A DNA stretch of 26,391 nucleotides from a virus, in the IMG/VR virus record IMGVR_UViG_3300035698_003859, positions 1 through 26,391 of that record; one strand, given 5' to 3'. The translations under genes were made by a program, and so were the position numbers. The notes under the pieces were generated by a model. That model was not told the origin of the DNA, ran no database searches, and saw only the letters and a list, made by a program, of their open reading frames with translations. Of this stretch, positions 4,769 through 24,483 are shown one piece after another (the stretch's first letter is position 1; the number at the start of each line of letters is the position of its first letter).

Positions 4769-6529
4769 TTAATCTTTTTTAATAGCTTTTCTTTTTAATC
4801 TAAACCCCATGGCTTTAAAATATGTCCTAAGCATTTCCGCAATAGTAGATTCTTGGTTCTTTGGAGTTTTTTCAGTACCATATTGAACAAGATTTTCAAT
4901 ATATTCCATTTTACTTTTAAACCCATCCGAGTGCATTATTAAAAATTCTTTTAGAAGATTGGGACAATTATGTGCTATCAATGCCCAAACTTCCATTTCA
5001 CCAAATCTTTGACCTCCTTTTATTTTTCTGCCAGCAGCTGGTTGCATCATTTTTTTACTATAACTTGCCAAGCTTCTTGCAGATAATTTAATTCTTGACA
5101 AATGTATTAATTTATTCCAATATTGAAAACCTACACCAATGTTTTTTATAGTTTTCTTAGAAAATTGTTCATATATATCATATTCACATTTAGTTCCTAA
5201 TAAATTACATAAATCAACTATATTTTTATATTTTGGTGATTCAAATGGCGGTGCCAATAATGAAAAGTTTGAAACATATTTATGAAAATCTTCATCTGAT
5301 AATGAGTTTATAAAACTACCCTCTTGCTTTGAGTACCATTTATTATAAGTTAAATCAATAAGATTTAAACATTTTCTTATTAATTTTCTTAGATCACTAG
5401 TATTCATTTTATAAGCATAACTTCGTATTTTATAAACATTCATTCCATCTGTTAATTCATATAATTGACCTGGGTTCATTCTTGATATAATACCCAATGG
5501 GTTTATTACTATATCTGCCATTCTGTCTAGTTCTTTAATTATTGGTAATTTATCGGATATCATTGATATGACACCTTTATTACCATGTCTGTTGCTTAAC
5601 TTATCTCCTGGGTCTAATGGGTATTGTGATTTTATTTTATAAGATATAAGTATATCTATTGTTTGGTTCTTAAATTTATATTTATCAAGTATCCCATGAT
5701 TCTTAAATATTATAAATTTCTTTTGCCAGTCTTCAAACTTTTCAATCTTATTTAATAATTCATCTCTTAATTTCTTTTTATTATTTAACATATCAGTTAT
5801 AAACATATCATAAACTCTTACATCTGAATTCCATCTATTTATATAAATAGAAATTTCACTTATTGTACCTGATACTTTTGATGAAACATCTTTTGGTCTA
5901 TTTAAAATAGAATATGTATTATTACCATCTGCATTTTTTAATGTTACCAAGGGATCACCTTTTTTAATACGGTCTCCAATATTTAAAAAAGGCTTGTATG
6001 AATTTTTACCATCCAAACTCAACAATATAGAATCCTTTGGTACCTCTATTACTTCTTTTACAACTTCCTCATGGGTGAACTTTTTGGCAACTTCTGAATT
6101 TACAGTAATTGCATCTTCATAATTCATACCATAAAATGGCATAATAACGGTTAATAAATTTAAACCAAAAGACATACATTCATCTTCATATGCAATGGTT
6201 TGATCTTTTTTTACAGAATCACCAACTTTAACCTTAATATTATAACCATCTTTAAGAAATTTAAGACTGGATCCTTCTTTATTTTCTATAACTATACAAT
6301 ATCTATCAATATACTTTACTTTTCCTTTAATATCTGACTTAACATACATACTTGTAAATTTTGGAAAATATGTTTCAAATCCACTCATAATATAAGGCGT
6401 TTCTTTATAAATACATTCTTTTACTTGCTTTTGTTGATTGACTGCCATCTGAAGTCTTGTCGGATCATCATTTTCCATAAATGGTACATTATTAACTAAT
6501 AAAGATGATATGACTAAATCTTTTTTCAT
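4769..6529 (-). CDS. rpoB: RNA polymerase beta subunit, C-terminal half (RpoB-like)
   Basis: Second half of a split beta subunit of a bacterial-type DNA-directed RNA polymerase. It begins at the region equivalent to E. coli PFLEHDD (here PFMENDDPTRLQMA, 16-29). It continues with YGMNYEDAITVNSE, the catalytic-site GDKLSNRHGNKG (308-319), NPLGIISRMNPGQLYEL, and the hybrid-binding C-terminal signature QRFGEMEVWAL (507-517), preceded by LSARSLASYSKKMMQPAAGRK. All expected blocks are present in 586 residues, so the half is intact. Start ATG 6529 follows GAAGGGATTCTAA. It lies 14 nt after the stop of the N-terminal half, so the two are surely co-expressed and must assemble. Confidence 0.95.
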   Translation of the reverse strand: MKKDLVISSLLVNNVPFMENDDPTRLQMAVNQQKQVKECIYKETPYIMSGFETYFPKFTSMYVKSDIKGKVKYIDRYCIVIENKEGSSLKFLKDGYNIKVKVGDSVKKDQTIAYEDECMSFGLNLLTVIMPFYGMNYEDAITVNSEVAKKFTHEEVVKEVIEVPKDSILLSLDGKNSYKPFLNIGDRIKKGDPLVTLKNADGNNTYSILNRPKDVSSKVSGTISEISIYINRWNSDVRVYDMFITDMLNNKKKLRDELLNKIEKFEDWQKKFIIFKNHGILDKYKFKNQTIDILISYKIKSQYPLDPGDKLSNRHGNKGVISMISDKLPIIKELDRMADIVINPLGIISRMNPGQLYELTDGMNVYKIRSYAYKMNTSDLRKLIRKCLNLIDLTYNKWYSKQEGSFINSLSDEDFHKYVSNFSLLAPPFESPKYKNIVDLCNLLGTKCEYDIYEQFSKKTIKNIGVGFQYWNKLIHLSRIKLSARSLASYSKKMMQPAAGRKIKGGQRFGEMEVWALIAHNCPNLLKEFLIMHSDGFKSKMEYIENLVQYGTEKTPKNQESTIAEMLRTYFKAMGFRLKRKAIKKD

Positions 6530-6543
6530 TTAGAATCCCTTCA

Positions 6544-8100
6544 CTAACCTAAAGAACTTATACTAAGAGTATCTACAAATTCTGGAATAGTTTTGTTTTT
6601 AGATTTTTTGGTACTATTTTCATCTATCTCATCTGCTTCATTTTTTTTATCTTTTTTAGTTTTTTTATCTTTTTGCAAATACTCAGGTATCTCTTCTATT
6701 ATTTCTGGGAGTTCAATCGGTATTAATGTAATTTTATCATTAAAATTAACAATTGGTTTATATATCATTCCAAGATCTCTTTCTTTAGACCCAACAACCA
6801 TATTCAGTATAACTCCACAATTCTCTCTATCAGGCGTGGCAACTGGACAGAATAGACTTCTTTGTGAGAAATGAATGTCTCTTTTTCTACCTTTAAAATA
6901 GTCTCTAATAAACCCTAATGGACCTATTTGTGTTATTTTAGTATATTCAGATAATTCAGTTAATGGGTTAAATTGATATTCATTTATGGATAATCTAGAA
7001 TTTACTACAAAATCATCTAGTTTAAATGTTTTTACATCATTTATATAATAAATTCTACGACCAAGCGATAAATTGACGTATAATGAATGCATGTATTTTA
7101 TATAATCAGATAACATATACTCAACACATCTTATTCTTTTATTTTTTACATCTAATTCATTATAAGGTTCTCTAGTTAACCCAAGTATCAATTCATCTTC
7201 TACACTTCCAGTTATCATATATTGAGATGTGAAAATATCAATTTTTGATAATGATGACATACATGCCTGAACATATTTAAAACTAGATCCTCTTTGATTT
7301 TCTTTTATATGTTTATTTATTTGTTTTTTCCAATACTCTGAACTGGAAACACTTTTATGTGTTCCACCATCATCACTAACATCATATTGCTTTATATCAA
7401 ATAAAGATGATACTAGCAGCTGTATTCTCCAATGAACATCACATTTCCATATGATTCTAACAGCATCCTGTCTTATAAATTCACCAATTGGTTCATCTGG
7501 TTTATCTATATCGAGTATGAATCCCAATTTTTCTTGGCATTTTTTTGGACCCCAAGTTGCCATTAAATATGACATAAAATGTAAAGAAGAATTTTTCATA
7601 AATGTTGTTTTTAAAGTAAAATCTTTTAAAAATAATTCCATTATATCAACATTACTCTGAAATCTTATTCTATCTTTTCTTACAACCAATGGTTTGTCTA
7701 TCAATTGAATACATGGTGTACTCTTGACACCATGTATTTTAAACATTGAATAATCATCCAAACATGGAAAATCTAAAAATATTGTTTGAATATGCCTCTT
7801 TTTTACTTCTTCGGGTTTCTTTTTATTTACTGGTACTTCTATTGTATTTTTTATATCTATTCTTATTTTTTCTAATAAACTATAGTCTATATCAGATGTC
7901 ATTACTTTTTCTTTGGAAATTCCATAATCCATATCAAAATCATTTTTAAAGTTTTGCAATATTAGGTCTATTATATTTGTTACCATTTTGTATTCATTCT
8001 TCTTCAAATTTAATACAAAATCTATATCATTGTAATCAAAATTTTCATTTACATACTCGTTTACAATTTGTTTAGAAATGTCTAAACTTTTCTTAATCAT
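6544..8100 (-). CDS. rpoB: RNA polymerase beta subunit, N-terminal half (RpoB-like)
   Basis: Contains the protrusion/lobe region and ends shortly after the fork/Rif-pocket region. NPLTELSEYTKITQIGPLGF (378-397) matches E. coli [20 protein letters not shown], and RDIHFSQRSLFCPVATPDRE (407-426) matches RDVHPTHYGRVCPIETPEG. The remaining 90 residues include a Lys/Asp/Glu-rich low-complexity tail (about 475-505), probably a flexible end at the split. I choose ATG 8100, preceded by GAAAGGATCTTTT; a TTG at 8121 also keeps the frame open but has no ribosome site. The stop is TAG followed immediately by TGA. It lies 17 nt downstream of the beta' gene. Confidence 0.94.
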   Translation of the reverse strand: MIKKSLDISKQIVNEYVNENFDYNDIDFVLNLKKNEYKMVTNIIDLILQNFKNDFDMDYGISKEKVMTSDIDYSLLEKIRIDIKNTIEVPVNKKKPEEVKKRHIQTIFLDFPCLDDYSMFKIHGVKSTPCIQLIDKPLVVRKDRIRFQSNVDIMELFLKDFTLKTTFMKNSSLHFMSYLMATWGPKKCQEKLGFILDIDKPDEPIGEFIRQDAVRIIWKCDVHWRIQLLVSSLFDIKQYDVSDDGGTHKSVSSSEYWKKQINKHIKENQRGSSFKYVQACMSSLSKIDIFTSQYMITGSVEDELILGLTREPYNELDVKNKRIRCVEYMLSDYIKYMHSLYVNLSLGRRIYYINDVKTFKLDDFVVNSRLSINEYQFNPLTELSEYTKITQIGPLGFIRDYFKGRKRDIHFSQRSLFCPVATPDRENCGVILNMVVGSKERDLGMIYKPIVNFNDKITLIPIELPEIIEEIPEYLQKDKKTKKDKKNEADEIDENSTKKSKNKTIPEFVDTLSISSLG

Positions 8101-8117
8101 AAAAGATCCTTTCAAAA

Positions 8118-10946
8118 TCAATCAAATTCACCTATAAGTATTCTATCAAAAAGACTTTCGCCTATTGGTTGCTCTATACCTTGTAGTAATTTATCTTTAA
8201 AATTATTTAATGCTGCACCAACCAACCAAGACTCACATCCAGGAACTGTTGTCATAGATACAGGTAAGAAATCTTTTTGGTCTTGTTTTAATCTATATTT
8301 ACTTTTCATATCTTTAGTCCAGAACAATTGACTTATAGGAACTTCAAAATGTAATGATTTTATTTTACCACCATATCTATCATGATTATATAAAAGATAT
8401 ATTTGTTTAAAATAATTATGTATTTCAGATGGTTTTGTTATATCTGGGGACTGGAATAGTTTTCTTACAATATTTAAGTCATTTACAATGTCTTCATTTT
8501 TACTTTTATTTTTCTTTTTACTTTTTGATTCAGTTGTTTTATCTTCTTTTAGTTTTGATTTAGTATCCATTTGAGCCACACCAGAATTATGAAAAACTCG
8601 TAAAACTAGTTGAGTGCTATGTTCACCAAGGCATTGGGCAGAAACGGTTCCTATATTTTTATTTTTTGTTGGGCAACATGTTTGACAAAATTCTTTAGAT
8701 TTACAAAATATCGGGCTTCTTAATTTTACAATTATTGTTTCATGTTCTTTCTTTGGTATAAACTTTTTACAATTATATTTTGTGATCTTCAACAATTTAC
8801 CATCATGTAAAATAAATCTACCAAATATATTTTTTACATCACCAAAGTGTCTTATTTCATATTCTAGATATTGATCCGAGCCACAGTCAACCATATCACT
8901 ACTTCTTGCAGTTATTCCCAAATATACCAGATATCTAGTTAATGTCCCAGATGTTGCGGTATTATCGGCTTGATCTACTAAACCTTTTCTAGTACCATAA
9001 CATGACGCAAAGAATTCAGTTGGATTTAATCCTTCCATTAAGTTTGATTTTATAAGATATGGAATTATATCACCAACGCAATTTGAAACATATCCTCTAT
9101 TAAGAACTAATTGTTTAGCTTGTGTCCAATCACCCCGGGCGCCAGATTCAATGATATCAATATATTTAAAATTATCTTTAAGCTTTGTATCTATAAGAAT
9201 ATTTTCTCTAGACATTACTTCCATTATTGATTCTTTATTATTTGGATCTATATCTCGCCATAATTCAGTTCTTTCACTTATAGGCAAAACACTCTCAGAA
9301 ATACCCTTTAAACTTAAAGTAAATCCATTAATAGTTCCATGTTTGAATCCAAGTTTTTTTATAATATCAAGAACTATAACTGCTCTATCTGGATCATTCT
9401 TACATAGTTCGGTTAATAATATTTTTAAAGTTTTCTTATTTAAAATATGACCCTGTAACTCAATTGGTAATAATTCAGGTTTATTTTTTGATAACCAAAA
9501 CAAACCTAATATAATATCTTGACCTGGCATATACATTAATTCTTCTGATGAGTCAAATAATAAATTAGACTTTGGTAATAAATTTTGTATTACTTCTTCT
9601 ATTGATTCATCACACATGGGAAAATATGCAGCCATTTGATCTCCATCAAAATCAGCATTAAATCCTTCACATGATAATGGGTGTATTTGTATTACTTTAA
9701 ATAATCCAACTTTTATATAGAACCCTTGTAATCCAGGTTTATGTAATGTTGGTTGTCTATTTAAACATACAGGTCTTCCCTCAATTATTTCTTCAACATA
9801 ATTTATTAAACAGAAATTCTCATTCTTTAAACATTCTTCAATAAAATTTTCTGCTTCATGGAAGAAATTAAAAGTGCCATTATTATTAGAAAGAGAAATT
9901 ATTTCATCTCTATAATCACCAGCAGTTTTTAATTCTCTATCCATTATAAGTTTTCTACTAATATGATATTTGAATATTTCCAAAAGAATTAAATAAGGAA
10001 TTCTACATTCATTTAAGGACAATGTTGGATCTGGTATTATAACACCTCTAGCACTAAAATCTATTCTCTTACCAAGAATATTTCCTCTCAATAAACCTTT
10101 CTTTCCAGATAATTTACTTATTATCTCTTTATATAATTCCATACAATCTTTTTGTAATGTTCTATATGAATGTTTTGTTATTGAGATATCTTCAAATAAT
10201 TTAAATGTATCATTTTTAAGTAAATTTATTTTGTTTATTATTACACCATATAATTTATTAATCTGATCACTTATTACAGTTTTACCTCTTTGTAACATTG
10301 GTCTTAAATCTGGAGGGATTACAATGACATCACTCATTATTGCATTATAAGAATATTCTTCCCATAACTTTTTAAGCTTTGCGGGTAAATTACCATTATC
10401 ATATACTACCATATAATCGATAACTTGTTTAGCTGCAACAGCACCCATAACAACTCTGTCACATATTTTTTTATTTTCTTTTAATTTGTCATATTCATCA
10501 ATAGCATGTAACTTATAACCCCAACTACCTTCACTAGATGGATCACCATCAATTTCAACGCATTTATTATAAAACATTAAATCTTTTACTAATTTTGTGA
10601 TCTTGGATGTTGATGAGAATGCTAACCAGAAAAATACTGGGTTAAATATTTGCACGGGGAGTTCAACTCTAGCGAACCTCGTTCTTCTTGAAATGCTATC
10701 AGTATATTCTATATTACATTTAGAACATTTTTGATTTTCTTTATCGTTTTTGTATATACCACATGAACATGTATAACTTTTATTTGGACCGAATATTTGT
10801 TGAGAGAATAGACCTTCTGGACAGAAACTTCCTTTTGATTTTGTAACCTTACTAGTTGTTATAACCGGTAATTTACTAATAAAGTCGTGAATATTAAAAA
10901 ATTCTAAAACAAATCCTTCAACATCCTTACTTTTAATTTTACTCAT
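8118..10946 (-). CDS. rpoC: RNA polymerase beta' subunit, single polypeptide (RpoC-like)
   Basis: Catalytic subunit with the Mg-binding NADFDGDQMA (430-439; Asp432, 434 and 436). It has an N-terminal zinc site (Cys60, 62, 74, 77) and GNILGKRIDFSARGVIIPDP (lid/rudder entry). The bridge helix/trigger-loop region starts near 618 (FFASCYGTRKGLVDQADNTA, then TSGTLTRYLVYLG). A second Cys cluster (FCQTCC) precedes QCLGEHSTQLVLRVFHNSGV (about 772-791), equivalent to the bacterial QSIGEPGTQLTMRTFH. At 942 residues it is compact (E. coli has 1407) yet reaches the C-terminal jaw/clamp end. A Lys-rich low-complexity insert follows residue 795. ATG 10946 has AGGAGG 4 nt upstream. Unlike phiKZ-type phages, beta' is not split here. 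Confidence 0.95.
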   Translation of the reverse strand: MSKIKSKDVEGFVLEFFNIHDFISKLPVITTSKVTKSKGSFCPEGLFSQQIFGPNKSYTCSCGIYKNDKENQKCSKCNIEYTDSISRRTRFARVELPVQIFNPVFFWLAFSSTSKITKLVKDLMFYNKCVEIDGDPSSEGSWGYKLHAIDEYDKLKENKKICDRVVMGAVAAKQVIDYMVVYDNGNLPAKLKKLWEEYSYNAIMSDVIVIPPDLRPMLQRGKTVISDQINKLYGVIINKINLLKNDTFKLFEDISITKHSYRTLQKDCMELYKEIISKLSGKKGLLRGNILGKRIDFSARGVIIPDPTLSLNECRIPYLILLEIFKYHISRKLIMDRELKTAGDYRDEIISLSNNNGTFNFFHEAENFIEECLKNENFCLINYVEEIIEGRPVCLNRQPTLHKPGLQGFYIKVGLFKVIQIHPLSCEGFNADFDGDQMAAYFPMCDESIEEVIQNLLPKSNLLFDSSEELMYMPGQDIILGLFWLSKNKPELLPIELQGHILNKKTLKILLTELCKNDPDRAVIVLDIIKKLGFKHGTINGFTLSLKGISESVLPISERTELWRDIDPNNKESIMEVMSRENILIDTKLKDNFKYIDIIESGARGDWTQAKQLVLNRGYVSNCVGDIIPYLIKSNLMEGLNPTEFFASCYGTRKGLVDQADNTATSGTLTRYLVYLGITARSSDMVDCGSDQYLEYEIRHFGDVKNIFGRFILHDGKLLKITKYNCKKFIPKKEHETIIVKLRSPIFCKSKEFCQTCCPTKNKNIGTVSAQCLGEHSTQLVLRVFHNSGVAQMDTKSKLKEDKTTESKSKKKNKSKNEDIVNDLNIVRKLFQSPDITKPSEIHNYFKQIYLLYNHDRYGGKIKSLHFEVPISQLFWTKDMKSKYRLKQDQKDFLPVSMTTVPGCESWLVGAALNNFKDKLLQGIEQPIGESLFDRILIGEFD

Positions 10947-10958
10947 CAACCCTCCTGT

Positions 10959-14806: not shown

Positions 14807-16444
14807 TTATAATAAATTATCTGCATATTTTGCTTTTAAAACCATTTTAAGTTTATCACTAAGAACCAATCTATCAATTAAATCAGTTACTTTTGGAACC
14901 TTTTTATTCTTGATATCTTCTTCCGTGAACTTATCCACAAATTTATCTTCTTTTGCCAAATGAACATATGGGTTATTTAAAAATACTCTTGGATCTTCAA
15001 TACCGGAAAGTTTAGCTGCATTTCTGGAAAGTATTGTACTCCCACATTGGGAATCACAATTATACCAAGTTTCATCTTCGTTATTATAAGTAGGACAATC
15101 ACAACTAATGGTATATTTGAATAAGTCTAAGAACCCAAGATTCTTAGCAAGAACCCATTCTTCATGTTTCATTATGTTTCTAAGGACTGGTTGTGGCTGA
15201 ATCTTACCTGGAACTATAGTACCAGTTTTAAATAGGTCCATTAAACTTTCCATAAACCAAAAGGAATTATCTGGATAGAATCCTTCTTCTTCTAATTGAC
15301 AGAATCCAGCCGAGAAATATACTTTACTATACCCATGATCCAAAATCAATGATTCAGAATAAGCACCCATTATAGTACCCATTACCATATTCCTACCAGG
15401 TACCCATGCCGTAGTTGATTTAATATGATCCTCTGTACCAGTTCTAATCTCACTATCTTTATTCAATAATTCCGATTTAGAATTAAATGCACCATATATT
15501 GTATTTAAATCTAATATTTTGAATGGTACATTAAGTTCTTTACATATACGTTTAAAAGCTTGTTCTTCTGCTTCCATACCTTTAGCACCGTATAAGAAAT
15601 GTAAAGCTTCTACATCTGCACCGGCTGCTTTAAGTAATGCCATTGTCGTTATAGAATCAATTCCACCACTTGCCAATACCAAATGTTTTTCTTTATTATT
15701 CTTTATATCAACTGGGTATGTATATTTTGGATTAAATGTTATATCTTTTTCATTTGTAAGATGTGGTGCGTTTAATAAATCAAGTTCAAATGATCTAATT
15801 GTAAATTGTTTCATGGGTGTAGCCCCTTCAAATTCACAACTATTAATTTCTAAACTTATATCATCAAAAGGTTTCATATAGTATTTAACATATATCGGGT
15901 GATATTTATTACATACGTGTAATTGTTTTCTAACATTATCATGTAGTATGAATGCAAAGCCACCATCTATAGCCTCACATGTTTTCTTTATGTCACCATC
16001 AAAGTGTTTATAATATAAAGCAATTGCCTCAGAATCACACTCAGATTCAAATACATACCCAAGAGATTTGAGTTCTTTTATACATGAGTTACTAATGGCA
16101 CCATTATGTACTATTGATATATCTGGTTTGGTATTTGTTGGGTTATTAATATGTATGGGTTGCATACTTTTAACTGACGATACAGATTCAGTTTCCGGTT
16201 GAGCTCTTGAACATCCCATAATTGATGATGTTGGTATGATATTTTCAATATATGATTTACTGTATCCATTATTTTTCAAATCCATAAAATTATAAGATAA
16301 ATTCGAACCAAATTTATCCCATATATTTATACCCAAACCATCATCCCCTCTAGTTAATGCACGATCCACATGATCCAGTACTAATTTAATTCGTCCCATA
16401 TTATTTTTTATTTTGCTATTGTATATATAAAATATTCCACACAT
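14807..16444 (-). CDS. queC: Glutamine amidotransferase-QueC fusion (Gat-QueC, preQ0 synthase type)
   Basis: Residues 1-230 are a class II (Ntn-type) glutamine amidotransferase: catalytic Cys2 exposed after Met removal (MCGIF), GCSRAQP (77-83), VHNGAISN (112-119) and CDSEA (136-140). Residues 253-545 are QueC: the ATP-binding PP-loop SGGIDS (259-264), TTAWVPGRN (344-352), YPDN (390-393) and a Cys cluster (448, 450, 463, 467). QueC makes 7-cyano-7-deazaguanine (preQ0). Gat-QueC fusions are known in phages whose DNA carries a 7-deazaguanine, such as Campylobacter phage CP220 (7-amido-7-deazaguanine). The fused domain could supply ammonia from glutamine. ATG 16444 follows AAGGAG. FolE2 lies 11 kb downstream; QueD and QueE are not in the window. 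Confidence 0.93.
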   Translation of the reverse strand: MCGIFYIYNSKIKNNMGRIKLVLDHVDRALTRGDDGLGINIWDKFGSNLSYNFMDLKNNGYSKSYIENIIPTSSIMGCSRAQPETESVSSVKSMQPIHINNPTNTKPDISIVHNGAISNSCIKELKSLGYVFESECDSEAIALYYKHFDGDIKKTCEAIDGGFAFILHDNVRKQLHVCNKYHPIYVKYYMKPFDDISLEINSCEFEGATPMKQFTIRSFELDLLNAPHLTNEKDITFNPKYTYPVDIKNNKEKHLVLASGGIDSITTMALLKAAGADVEALHFLYGAKGMEAEEQAFKRICKELNVPFKILDLNTIYGAFNSKSELLNKDSEIRTGTEDHIKSTTAWVPGRNMVMGTIMGAYSESLILDHGYSKVYFSAGFCQLEEEGFYPDNSFWFMESLMDLFKTGTIVPGKIQPQPVLRNIMKHEEWVLAKNLGFLDLFKYTISCDCPTYNNEDETWYNCDSQCGSTILSRNAAKLSGIEDPRVFLNNPYVHLAKEDKFVDKFTEEDIKNKKVPKVTDLIDRLVLSDKLKMVLKAKYADNLL

Positions 16445-17191: not shown

Positions 17192-17599
17192 TTATTCAAT
17201 TAACATTTTTAATATTTTAAGTCCATCTTTAAATTCTTTAGTTATATTTATTTTTTTATTATAAGCTAAAAATTCAATATGAATATTATTTAAATTTTCA
17301 CATATGAATTCTTCTGATAATTTTTGATATTCCGAAACATTAGTCCAATTAACTCTATCTTTAAATTCTCTAATGAATTCTTCTGATAATTCTTGGAACC
17401 ATGAAATATCATTCCAATTAACATTATCTTTAAATTCTCTAATAAATTCTTCTGATAATGTTAGATGCCATGAAATTCTACCCCAATTCACATTACCTTT
17501 AAATTTATCAATATCAAATTTACCATCAGTCACATATGTATTATAAACACTCTGATATTTGCTTAATTCAATACATTCATTTAATATTTTATCATTCAA
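17192..17599 (-). CDS. 23-residue tandem-repeat protein, array copy 3
   Basis: Paralogue of the two genes upstream and of the gene at the left edge. It has an N-terminal cap, then three W-x-x-[IV]-S-x-x-[QL] units (NWGRIS, NWNDIS, NWTNVS), each followed by LSEEFI-x-E, and the family C-terminal cap (SEEFICENLNNIHIEF to KILKMLIE). The variable residues are GR/WH, ND/WF and TN/EY. I choose TTG 17599, 5 nt after GGAGG (17605-17609). An ATG at 17617 overlaps the previous stop as ATGA, but would place the ribosome site within the gene. Function unknown. Confidence 0.8.
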   Translation of the reverse strand: MNDKILNECIELSKYQSVYNTYVTDGKFDIDKFKGNVNWGRISWHLTLSEEFIREFKDNVNWNDISWFQELSEEFIREFKDRVNWTNVSEYQKLSEEFICENLNNIHIEFLAYNKKINITKEFKDGLKILKMLIE

Positions 17600-17613
17600 C
17601 AGATCCTCCAATC

Positions 17614-18021
17614 TCATTCGATTAACATTCTCAAAACCTTAATTTTATCTTTAAATTCTTTAGTTAGATTTATTTCAGAATTACCAAATAAATAATTAAT
17701 ATCAATTCTACTAAAATTATTACATATAAAATCTTCTGATATTTCTTGATATGATGCTATCCAATCCCAATTAACATAATCTTCAAATTTCACAATGAAT
17801 TCTTCTGATAATTCTTGCACAAATGAAATTCCAGACCAATCAAGTCTATCTTTAAATTCTGTAATGAATTCTTCGGATAATCTAATATGAAACGAAATCA
17901 AATACCAATTAACTTCATCTATAAATTTATTAATATCAAATTTAGAATCAATTACACACATATGGTAAATTCCACGCTTTATACTTATTTTAATACATTC
18001 ATCTATTAAATCTTGATCCAT
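17614..18021 (-). CDS. 23-residue tandem-repeat protein, array copy 2
   Basis: Same architecture as its neighbours with three repeat units (NWYLIS, DWSGIS, NWDWIA), then SEDFICNNF and the C-terminal cap ending RMLIE. It is more diverged than the others: IA replaces IS in the third unit, and KFEDYVN replaces EFKDxVN. ATG 18021 has GGAG (18028-18031) 6 nt upstream. The in-frame ATG 18039 overlaps the previous stop (ATGA) and lies before the ribosome site, so it is less likely. No known domain; a helical solenoid with a ligand surface formed by the variable residues is inferred. Confidence 0.8.
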   Translation of the reverse strand: MDQDLIDECIKISIKRGIYHMCVIDSKFDINKFIDEVNWYLISFHIRLSEEFITEFKDRLDWSGISFVQELSEEFIVKFEDYVNWDWIASYQEISEDFICNNFSRIDINYLFGNSEINLTKEFKDKIKVLRMLIE

Positions 18022-18035
18022 ACCATACTCCAATC

Positions 18036-18515
18036 TCATCCGATTAACATTTTCAAAACCCTAATTTTATCTTTGAATTCTTTGGTTAAGTTTATTTTAT
18101 TATTAATAAATAACCAATAAATTTCAATATTATCTAAATTTTCACATATAAATTCTTCTGATAATTTTTGATGTTCAGAAATACCAGACCAATTAACTTT
18201 ATCTTTAAACTCTATAATAAATTCTTCTGATAATATTTGATAGATTGAAATCTTATACCAAGAAATGTTATCTTTAAATTCTCTAATAAATTCTTCAGAT
18301 AATTTTTGCTTATAAGGAATCCAAAACCAATCCACTTCATTTTTAAATTCTTTAATAAATTCTTTTGATAATTTTTCATGACAAGAAATACCATGCCAAG
18401 GAATCATATATTTAAATTTATAAATATCAAATTTAGAATCAGTTACACACATATTATAAATTCTATGTTTTTTACTTATTTTAATGCATTCATTTAATAT
18501 TTTATCATTCAACAC
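18036..18515 (-). CDS. 23-residue tandem-repeat protein, array copy 1
   Basis: First and longest gene of the three-gene array: cap (LNECIKISKKHRIYNMC), then four units (PWHGIS, DWFWIP, SWYKIS, NWSGIS) and the cap ICENLDNIEIYWLF to VLKMLIG. Copy number of the unit differs between paralogues (3, 3, 4, and 5 at the left edge). The start is GTG 18515, 5 nt after GGGGG (18521-18525). It is divergent from the 3'-phosphoesterase gene, with a 78-nt spacer between start codons. A weak TATAAT (18531-18536, minus) could drive the array, but no good -35 is visible. Confidence 0.8.
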   Translation of the reverse strand: MLNDKILNECIKISKKHRIYNMCVTDSKFDIYKFKYMIPWHGISCHEKLSKEFIKEFKNEVDWFWIPYKQKLSEEFIREFKDNISWYKISIYQILSEEFIIEFKDKVNWSGISEHQKLSEEFICENLDNIEIYWLFINNKINLTKEFKDKIRVLKMLIG

Positions 18516-21881: not shown

Positions 21882-23606
21882 TTATAAAATATCAGATTTC
21901 TCTATATTCTTATTAAATCTTTCAATTTCTCTATTCATGTGATATGGATCGTCATCAACCTTTTTATCATAATCATCACCACTCGATCCCTCACCCCAGG
22001 TTTTATAAAAATTCCTTAAATCTTCGAGTTCACTAGTAGTAACATCATCTTTACCCATACGATGCATTTTTGCTAAATTTTCCTTTATACCATAATAAGC
22101 AAAGGCACTAGCCAATACTAAATCATCAGGATTGCCTTTCCATGTACCATCTGGTCTTTCTTTAAGACCAACAACTTCCATAAGCAATCTTTCAGATCTT
22201 ATACCATCACTTTTATATGTCATAAATGTATACAATGCTGAAAATACTTTTGGTCTTGTGATTGGTGTTGTGCTAAACCCTGGTTTCTCACCGGTCTGTA
22301 CATTACTTCTATCATATATTGGGGTATTATAAAATCTGTCCTTGAATACACTTTTTGCAAACATTTCACACATACCAATAGATAATGAGTTATTTTCCAT
22401 TATAATATAACTATTTTCATATAATTCAAAAATTTCTTGTAAAATATATTCATATTCACGTATTCCGATTTTTCCTTGGAACTCTGCTATTTGTCTCTCA
22501 TCCAATGCAGATATAATTGATAAGGTAGAAAAACAAGATCCATATGCAGTTGCAGTATCAACACCAATATAATAAAAATCATTTGGGTCTGGTTCTTCCC
22601 ATATCCAAAGAGTCGCCTTTCCCTGACAAAACTCAACCACTCTGGATGCTTCTTTTTTATGAAATGAATCTATATTAGTTATAACTTCTTCATCTAAGAA
22701 ACCTTTATGAATATCACCTGGTAAAAATACTAGGTCCAATTCTTGAGCTATTGCAGATTTATCATAGTTCAAGAATTTACATTGGTTGTTATACCATTCT
22801 GGTCTATCTGCAAATTCTGGTATATCTCTCCAATGAACTCTTAATAATTTATAATGTGAATCTTTGGCAAGTGCTCTTTGGACATTTTCATAAAACCATT
22901 TTCCTGTATTTATAGTTCTATTTGGTGTGCTCATTATAACAGTACCATAAGGAACTTGATTTTCTCTTGCAAATGCTTGGGCTGTTGCTAATGCTGGAAT
23001 TATACCAACATATGCATCTGCTATTTTAGATATAAATGCAGCCTCATCCACAACCAAAAAACATACAGATTTACCACGAAACAATGCTTCTGGTTTATTA
23101 AGGTTTACCTGTGCAGAATGGACTATTGAGTTTGTTTCTTTAAAACTAAATGATTGTTTATTATCTATACCAATTTCTGGTTTCAACCATACCGGTAAGT
23201 TCGACATCATATCCCTTGTTTTTCTTATAAAATCAGATGCTTCAGTACCATCTTTAGATACAACACCTACTATAACATTTTTATGAAACATACATAAAAA
23301 TATAATAAATGCTTGTATAATGGTTGATATACCAATCTGTCTAGATTTATTCACTATAAGTTGATTGTATTTTAATAATGCATCTAATACTTTCTTCTGT
23401 CCAATGTGTGGTATAAATGCTATTGTCTCACCTGGCATCTCTAGTTTCAAATAATTTTCAATGAAATATAATGGATTAATACGGCATCTTATTAATTCAG
23501 CTGCCGCCCATTCATTATGCATCATTGCCATTTCATCTGTTAATGGACCTTCGAAAGGTTTTCCTGGCATTCTATTTTTTTTTCTAACCCTATTATTTAA
23601 AGACAT
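21882..23606 (-). CDS. terL: Terminase large subunit
   Basis: DNA-packaging motor with both domains. ATPase: deviant Walker A KSRQIGIST (87-95, no Lys in the usual GKT place, a common terminase variant), Walker B CFLVVDEAAF (182-191; Asp187, Glu188) and coupling motif MSTPN (225-229). RNase H-like nuclease: first Asp in YIGVDTA (Asp350), IIMENN (Glu404) and NPDD (492-495). All acidic residues needed for cleavage are present, so it should be active. The 574 residues are near the T4 gp17 size (610). ATG 23606 follows AGGAGG and overlaps the upstream paralogue by 14 nt. The C-terminal 60 residues are acidic and probably flexible. A small terminase subunit is not seen in the window. Confidence 0.95.
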   Translation of the reverse strand: MSLNNRVRKKNRMPGKPFEGPLTDEMAMMHNEWAAAELIRCRINPLYFIENYLKLEMPGETIAFIPHIGQKKVLDALLKYNQLIVNKSRQIGISTIIQAFIIFLCMFHKNVIVGVVSKDGTEASDFIRKTRDMMSNLPVWLKPEIGIDNKQSFSFKETNSIVHSAQVNLNKPEALFRGKSVCFLVVDEAAFISKIADAYVGIIPALATAQAFARENQVPYGTVIMSTPNRTINTGKWFYENVQRALAKDSHYKLLRVHWRDIPEFADRPEWYNNQCKFLNYDKSAIAQELDLVFLPGDIHKGFLDEEVITNIDSFHKKEASRVVEFCQGKATLWIWEEPDPNDFYYIGVDTATAYGSCFSTLSIISALDERQIAEFQGKIGIREYEYILQEIFELYENSYIIMENNSLSIGMCEMFAKSVFKDRFYNTPIYDRSNVQTGEKPGFSTTPITRPKVFSALYTFMTYKSDGIRSERLLMEVVGLKERPDGTWKGNPDDLVLASAFAYYGIKENLAKMHRMGKDDVTTSELEDLRNFYKTWGEGSSGDDYDKKVDDDPYHMNREIERFNKNIEKSDIL

Positions 23607-24462
23607 TATTTCCTCCTATATTATCACAATCATCATGAAAATTAAGATTTAACTCTTGTGATATTGACATTTTATCATGACCCAATAACTCGCATTTGTC
23701 AGCATACCATTCTGGATCATCTGCATATTTTGGTATATTTTTCCAATGCATATTTATTAATTTAAATCCAGGTTCGACTGGATCAGTTGCCTTTACCACT
23801 TGATCATAAAACCATTTACCTTTTTTGGTTGTTTTATTTGGTGTACTCATGATAATAGTACCATAAGGGATATCATATTTCTTTGCGAACTCTTGTGCCG
23901 TTAATAAAGATGGTAATAATGCATCAAATGCGTCAGAGATTTTTGGTATGAATGCAGCTTCATTTATAATTAAAATGGATATAGCCTTACCGCAGAATAA
24001 TGTATGTGGAGCCATGATATTAACATTTGAGGAATGTACCGCTGAGTTTGAATATTTGAGTCTAAATGATTGAGCATTACTTATATCAAATTCGGGCTTT
24101 AACCATTCGGGTAAACCCTCAATCATGTTTTTCATTTTTTTAATAATATCAATAGATTCACTATCACTACTAGAAACAAATCCAGCTTGTACATTTTTAT
24201 TAAATATACATAAATATAAAATATATGCCATGATAATTGAAGATATTCCTATCTGTCTAGTTTTGTTTATTATAATATTATTCTCAGACACCAATGTATC
24301 TAATACTTCTAATTGACCACAATGAGGGGTAAAGTTTATAACACCACCAGGAACTTCTAATTTCAAATAGTTTTCTATAAAATATAAAGGATCCTTCTCA
24401 CACTTTACAACCTCGGATACACAAAAAATTGGATCAATTGTTTCATTATTTTTTAAAGACAT
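23593..24462 (-). CDS. Terminase ATPase-domain paralogue, nuclease domain absent
   Basis: Closely parallels residues 30-295 of the adjacent terminase: DPLYFIENYLKLEVPGG (24-40), NKTRQIGISS (66-75), MSTPNK (205-210) and GKWFYD (215-220). It ends where the terminase linker to the nuclease begins (SISQELNLNF), so it is an ATPase-only copy of 289 residues. Walker B reads ILIINEAAF (163-171): the metal-binding Asp is Asn167, while the catalytic Glu168 is kept. The frame is clean and the ribosome site good (AGGAG before ATG 24462), so it is not simply decaying. The last codons contain the terminase Shine-Dalgarno. Possible roles are a regulatory or non-catalytic motor subunit or a packaging chaperone (inference). 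Confidence 0.85.
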   Translation of the reverse strand: MSLKNNETIDPIFCVSEVVKCEKDPLYFIENYLKLEVPGGVINFTPHCGQLEVLDTLVSENNIIINKTRQIGISSIIMAYILYLCIFNKNVQAGFVSSSDSESIDIIKKMKNMIEGLPEWLKPEFDISNAQSFRLKYSNSAVHSSNVNIMAPHTLFCGKAISILIINEAAFIPKISDAFDALLPSLLTAQEFAKKYDIPYGTIIMSTPNKTTKKGKWFYDQVVKATDPVEPGFKLINMHWKNIPKYADDPEWYADKCELLGHDKMSISQELNLNFHDDCDNIGGNNVFK

Positions 24463-24483
24463 TATTTACTCCTATAAAATTAA

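Follow-up and report, generated by a model that had tools for sequence, protein, structure and literature searches.

The DNA packaging motors of tailed phages are treated as homomeric rings of the terminase protein TerL. The Hp17 mutants of phage T4 are laboratory-selected mutants in which gene 17, encoding the T4 TerL protein gp17, is amplified; these amplification mutants were reportedly the work of Wu et al. in 1991 and 1995. According to passages in PMC9958956 and PMC3012670 that cite this work, the tandem amplification of gene 17 occurs at short homologies.

The T4 motor is able to accommodate inactive subunits. T4 subunits carrying the Q163A substitution co-assemble with the wild type, and one to three dead subunits are tolerated, with slower packaging that is interrupted by pauses (PMC8589836, PMC9958956). 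Motors containing dead subunits engage DNA less often, move at lower velocity and pause more (PMC8589836). The ATPase domain of D6E TerL, when isolated, assembles into pentamers, and its activity greatly exceeds that of the full-length protein (PMC5727402). Tandem TerL homologues have been reported in the Xanthomonas jumbo phages XaC1 and XbC2 (PMC11273794). Here we describe a viral locus in which a complete terL gene is accompanied by a second gene encoding a TerL ATPase domain without a nuclease.

A shortened terminase gene upstream of terL

The window analysed is the whole of IMG/VR record IMGVR_UViG_3300035698_003859, a 26,391-bp fragment, with a GC content of 26%, of a larger phage. The complete terL gene (21882..23606, minus strand) encodes a protein of 574 residues with an ATPase and an RNase H-like nuclease domain, which matches phrog_2 over residues 34-564 (E 2.6e-33) and T4 gp17 in a phmmer search. 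Directly upstream, on the same strand, lies a gene of 289 codons (23593..24462, minus) with an ATG start, an open frame devoid of internal stops and an intact ribosome-binding site, tataggagtaaataATG. The two genes overlap by 14 nt (23593..23606), such that the stop codon of the short gene falls inside the start of terL. Among the other genes are those for a helicase and T4-like baseplate proteins. Pieces of RNA polymerase beta and beta-prime are spread over three ORFs (4769-10949, minus), and their presence beside a T4-like baseplate and terminase is an unusual mix. A 545-residue, fusion-like protein (14807-16444, minus) combines an N-terminal glutamine amidotransferase with a QueC-like domain. 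There is also a second tandem gene family, made up of three ORFs in a row (141, 141 and 159 residues; 17192-18515, minus), each with a match to phrog_3532; around the start, two of the three are nearly identical in sequence.

Both terminase proteins match T4-type terminase families, and they share 51% identity and 73% positives over 275 residues (E 1e-104). The short copy is recognized as a gp17-type ASCE ATPase domain through phrog_5989 (E 3.5e-28), while its score against Pfam PF03237, 17.7 bits, lies below the 22-bit cut-off. An ATPase-domain HMM matches both proteins. With an HMM of the TerL nuclease domain, no match is found in the short copy, and the adjoining TerL scores 172.6 bits. The short protein ends at the linker, lacking the C-terminal RNase H-like nuclease of T4-type TerL proteins, and its end falls within a few residues of T4 residue 360, where the solved gp17 ATPase domain also ends. 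At the other terminus, some 25 N-terminal residues of TerL have no counterpart in the short copy. These results bear out the sequence-only reading of the locus, which had described an ATPase-only terminase copy with an intact frame and ribosome site beside a complete terL.

An AlphaFold model of the short copy has a mean pLDDT of 90.2 and a pTM of 0.88. It superimposes on the T4 gp17 ATPase structure 2o0j with a Z score of 26.5 and an rmsd of 3.0 over 258 residues, spanning gp17 67-360, and on P74-26 TerL (7ks4) with a Z score of 21.8. The short copy is therefore predicted to adopt the full T4-type ATPase fold with both subdomains. It resembles the gp17 ATPase domain (residues 1-360; 2o0j, 2o0h) in this fold, in the P-loop Arg and Gln, in the catalytic Glu and in the coupling motif. 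It differs from gp17 in having no nuclease, in carrying Asn for D255 and Cys for R245, and in having Ile at the position of K166.

The junctions of the two genes carry a trace of their origin. A 30-bp block covering the ribosome site of the short gene and its start (24447..24476, minus) recurs over the end of the short gene and the ribosome site and start of terL (23591..23620, minus). The two copies are identical at 28 of 30 positions, the next-best match on that strand being 20/30, and their flanks are unrelated (7/26 and 12/43). Tandem duplication would be expected to leave such a block at the short gene's 5' end and at the terL junction, and the arrangement points to the short gene having arisen by tandem duplication of terL. 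In phylogenetic trees the short copy and its own TerL are sisters with a support of 0.993, followed by the TerL of the nearest relative, L013. As in the T4 Hp17 mutants, terL would have been duplicated in tandem between short repeats. Unlike those mutants, which were selected in the laboratory and amplify gene 17, the window copy is natural, shortened and diverged.

Active-site residues of the short copy

Compared with T4 gp17, the short copy has kept the adenine-pocket Gln, the Arg and Gln of the P-loop, the catalytic Glu and the STPN motif. Its deviant Walker A, NKTRQIGISS (24238..24267, minus), contains the cis Arg69 and Gln70, which align with T4 R162 and Q163. The position of the T4 Walker A Lys (K166) is occupied by Ile, with a Lys located further upstream; as the Ile is present in both window copies, this change is not specific to the short one. 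The catalytic glutamate (T4 E256) is Glu168 (23959..23961, minus), and the STPN coupling motif, motif III, lies at 23836..23847 (minus).

Two substitutions are peculiar to the short copy. Its Walker B reads ILIINEAAF where TerL has FLVVDEAAF, so that the Asp-Glu pair of T4-type TerL proteins has become Asn167-Glu168, with the Asp gone and the Glu present. Asn167 corresponds to T4 D255 and is encoded by AAT (23962..23964, minus) in place of GAT; Asp is found here in 94% of the comparison TerLs. The second change is from Arg to Cys at residue 157 (23992..23994, minus), the site of the trans-arginine finger (T4 R245, P74-26 R139), where all 53 of 53 comparison TerLs have Arg. The finger-site Arg precedes the Walker B Asp by ten residues, and its equivalence to P74-26 R139 is taken from an alignment to 4zni with a numbering offset of five. 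P74-26 R139 is a confirmed trans-arginine finger (PMC5727402), and in the Walker B of T4 even conservative swaps between Asp and Glu abolish packaging (PMC9958956).

The catalytic consequences have to be judged against other terminases. A search of DNA for the INEAAFIP motif retrieved full-length TerLs of 405 residues with an INEAAF(IP) Walker B, belonging to a distant family (L217:1729-2946 and L220:235-1452). Judging by their sequences, Asn at the Walker B Asp position occurs in TerLs that are apparently functional. TerLs of huge phages, for their part, lack the finger Arg. Neither change therefore proves inactivity, and the ATPase of the short copy is best described as probably dead or impaired in hydrolysis. 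The Asp-to-Asn substitution and the retention of the catalytic Glu, the deviant Walker A (NKTRQIGIS) and MSTPN had all been recognized from the sequence, and each of these observations stands. What does not hold is the step from Asn to a proven dead ATPase, which is weakened by INEAAF in the distant full-length TerLs. The loss of the finger Arg had escaped that first reading.

Selection and parallel nuclease-free copies

Several measures give signs that the short copy is under purifying selection rather than decaying. Its identity with TerL is 67%, 77% and 54% at the first, second and third codon positions. The proportions of synonymous and nonsynonymous differences are 0.56 and 0.28, and the pairwise dN/dS is about 0.34, with dS nearly saturated. 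When neutral change was simulated to half the divergence, ~6 stops were expected and only 0.2% of runs remained stop-free (P about 0.002). By Tajima relative-rate tests with five outgroups (chi2 <=1.7), the short copy has not changed significantly more than TerL, although its maximum-likelihood branch is 1.5 times longer than that of TerL (0.56 and 0.37). Columns conserved in the family are kept at 35 of 49 positions, compared with 36 of 49 in TerL. With its frame intact and its rate not significantly different from that of TerL, the gene does not have the character of a pseudogene.

Orthologues of the short copy were found neither by protein search of viral_contigs nor by profile search of genome_contigs. 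The tandem pair was present in none of the 80 TerL loci kept from a profile search of viral_contigs, no second match was found in 14 related records, and the short copy was not found in L013. Searches with RNA polymerase or baseplate genes yielded no relatives of the window phage, and the INEAAFIP motif search of DNA produced no sibling of the short copy. Because no orthologue was found, the case for selection in the window lineage rests on a single pair of copies.

A search for genomes with a second TerL place nevertheless identified parallel cases. In the Emdodecavirus phages phiM12, phiM7, phiM19 and phiN3, which infect Sinorhizobium, a gene of ~194 codons lies between terS and terL; in phiM12 it is annotated as gp17.2. 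Like the window copy, gp17.2 is an intact, nuclease-free TerL paralogue directly upstream of a complete terL, with purifying selection and a change in a Walker motif. Between phiN3 and phiM12, gp17.2 shows 82% amino acid identity with a dN/dS of 0.225 and an excess of synonymous change (Fisher p 2e-10), compared with 99% and 0.047 for terL. Its Walker A, ERATGKT, has Ala at the position of T4 Q163, and Q163A is the dead subunit of the T4 doping experiments (PMC8589836). At 194 residues gp17.2 is shorter than the window copy, ending after motif III and thus without subdomain II. It also differs in that its change is Q163 to Ala in Walker A while its own Walker B and Arg are kept. The two do not form one paralogue family by descent: the window copy groups with its own TerL as sister (0.993), and gp17.2 occupies a separate, deeper branch.

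ATPase-only copies are also found in huge phages of 462-735 kb, namely LR756500, LR756501/LR756503 and LR756504, and in IMG/VR records L112 and L113. In LR756500 (462 kb), a copy of 270 residues lies just downstream of an interrupted terL and has DN for DE in Walker B, the catalytic Glu being replaced by Asn. The 390-residue copy of LR756501/LR756503 (735 kb) has Walker motifs that look intact and IMG/VR relatives at 83 and 69%, with a dN/dS of about 0.16; in LR756501 it is tens of kb from terL. The copy in LR756504 (636 kb; L211:2198-2863) is cut by the end of the record and has lost Walker A and the catalytic Glu, making it a candidate pseudo-ATPase on sequence grounds. LR756508 (484 kb) encodes a stand-alone TerL-type ATPase (L011:1363-2229, at ~185 kb) 43 kb from terL, with an intact Walker B, Lys at the finger site and an additional segment at the N-terminus which, on visual inspection, looks like a ribbon-helix-helix. 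LR756511 and LR756502 have one TerL each, with no second. The huge-phage copies resemble the window copy in consisting of the ATPase domain only, in being catalytically degraded in some cases and in coexisting with a nuclease-containing TerL in the same genome. They differ in forming a branch with their own TerLs and in their placement, downstream of terL in LR756500 and distant from it in LR756501. Loss of the finger Arg in these copies was initially taken as degeneration; this was dropped, as their own TerLs also lack it.

In the tree, the window copy, gp17.2 and the copies of huge phages fall in separate places, so that at least three origins of nuclease-free copies are probable. The statement in the sequence-only reading that no described phage motor was known to have an additional TerL subunit lacking the nuclease is too strong, given the annotation of gp17.2 and the report on XaC1 and XbC2. 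No described function for such copies was found in the open-licence literature and, as far as a limited library allows, their recurrence with independent active-site changes appears to be new. That reading had also taken a dN/dS near 1, or the presence of only broken remnants in related genomes, as signs against a function. The values are not near 1, at about 0.34 for the window pair (dS nearly saturated) and 0.16 and 0.22 for the parallel families. Short copies elsewhere are intact, a result that applies to these parallel families, relatives of the window phage not having been found.

Other candidates were set aside. The short ORFs L031, L047, L052 and L055-L057 look like split-intein or interrupted genes; in all of these except L031, terL is apparently split by an intein precisely where the ATPase domain ends, giving ORFs of ~290-305 residues. 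Two adjacent annotated terminase CDS in Salmonella SD-6_S16 look like one split gene, and RAS14 has a single TerL-matching CDS.

Possible roles of the short copy

We tentatively favour, at a probability a little short of even, the reading that the short copy is an accessory subunit of TerL type, impaired in hydrolysis, which tunes packaging and is kept by selection. On this proposal, terL was duplicated in tandem in the window lineage, the additional copy retaining no more than the leader and the ATPase domain. The product of the short gene would be a separate, folded TerL ATPase domain that probably still binds ATP, probably hydrolyses it poorly through the Walker B change, and would not supply the usual arginine to a neighbouring subunit. 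It may associate with full-length TerL or with partners such as the portal, the small terminase or DNA and, as an accessory subunit, could slow, time or license packaging, a role for which selection would retain the gene. As T4 motors accept dead subunits and the lone D6E domain is pentameric, one would expect packaging to be slowed or timed by an impaired ATPase domain pairing with TerL. The portal-contacting hinge, placed according to PMC9958956, is located at or beyond the end of the short copy, which argues against the short copy docking alone on the portal.

It is also conceivable, though distinctly improbable, that the short copy is a non-functional recent duplicate on its way out, a by-product of terL duplication like the T4 gene 17 amplifications. 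The flanking 30-bp direct repeats are the residue expected of unequal recombination, comparable to the short homologies used in Hp17 mutants according to the passages cited above, two conserved active-site residues have been lost, and the nearest relative, L013, yielded no short copy. However, 51% identity with TerL implies that the copy is old, its frame has stayed open (probability of no stop 0.002), its substitution rate is not significantly different from that of TerL, it has kept conserved positions, and the parallel copies elsewhere are intact. The retained catalytic Glu, Walker A and coupling motif, together with the Walker B Asn of full-length TerLs, would suit an active nuclease-free ATPase working away from the motor, perhaps as an enzyme that translocates or remodels DNA. 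Removal of the nuclease domain raised the kcat of the D6E ATPase from 7.8 to 458 per min (PMC5727402), and the stand-alone ATPase of LR756508, with its ribbon-helix-helix-like segment far from terL, offers a possible precedent. We consider this unlikely, as an active ring ATPase of the TerL family would not be expected to have lost the finger Arg together with the Walker B Asp, and the place beside terL suggests co-regulation with packaging.

A role in defence evasion is very unlikely, though some observations fit it. An inert TerL look-alike could act as a decoy or interfering protein by occupying Avs-type receptors that sense TerL: Avs3 has been solved bound to a phage terminase, that chain (8dgc) matches the short-copy model with a Z score of 20.1, and gp17.2 evolves much faster than terL (82% and 99% amino acid identity) in the manner of an arms race. 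The ATPase-only form might instead trigger the receptor, however, and the window copy is not significantly faster than TerL. Next to no credence can be given to an assembly artefact, or to the short gene being one half of a terL that is split or interrupted by an intein. The split-intein-like TerL ORFs described above do end at the same ATPase/nuclease boundary, but the adjoining terL is complete with its own nuclease, which already refutes this reading, and the short C-terminus, NFHDDCDNIGGNNVFK, lacks an intein start such as the C-x-GDT of those ORFs. Copies that are 51% identical cannot be one gene misassembled.

Returning to the accessory-subunit reading, T4 motors with dead subunits run in vitro but pause more (PMC8589836), and nature may use the same device. 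The existence of selected, nuclease-free, ATPase-altered TerL copies suggests a second type of subunit, or a dedicated regulator, in some motors. A more general version, in which unrelated large phages independently evolved a nuclease-free and often hydrolysis-impaired ring subunit, giving a heteromeric motor with a built-in means of braking, pacing or licensing, is rather unlikely. The accessory-subunit idea is directly testable in the cultured phage phiM12. A separate feature of that phage concerns synonymous sites, at which phiN3 and phiM12 differ more in gp17.2 (dS 0.45; L097:2333-2917, L100:4001-4591) than in terL (0.10) or terS (0.06); this raised divergence suggests allele replacement or a diversity hot spot.
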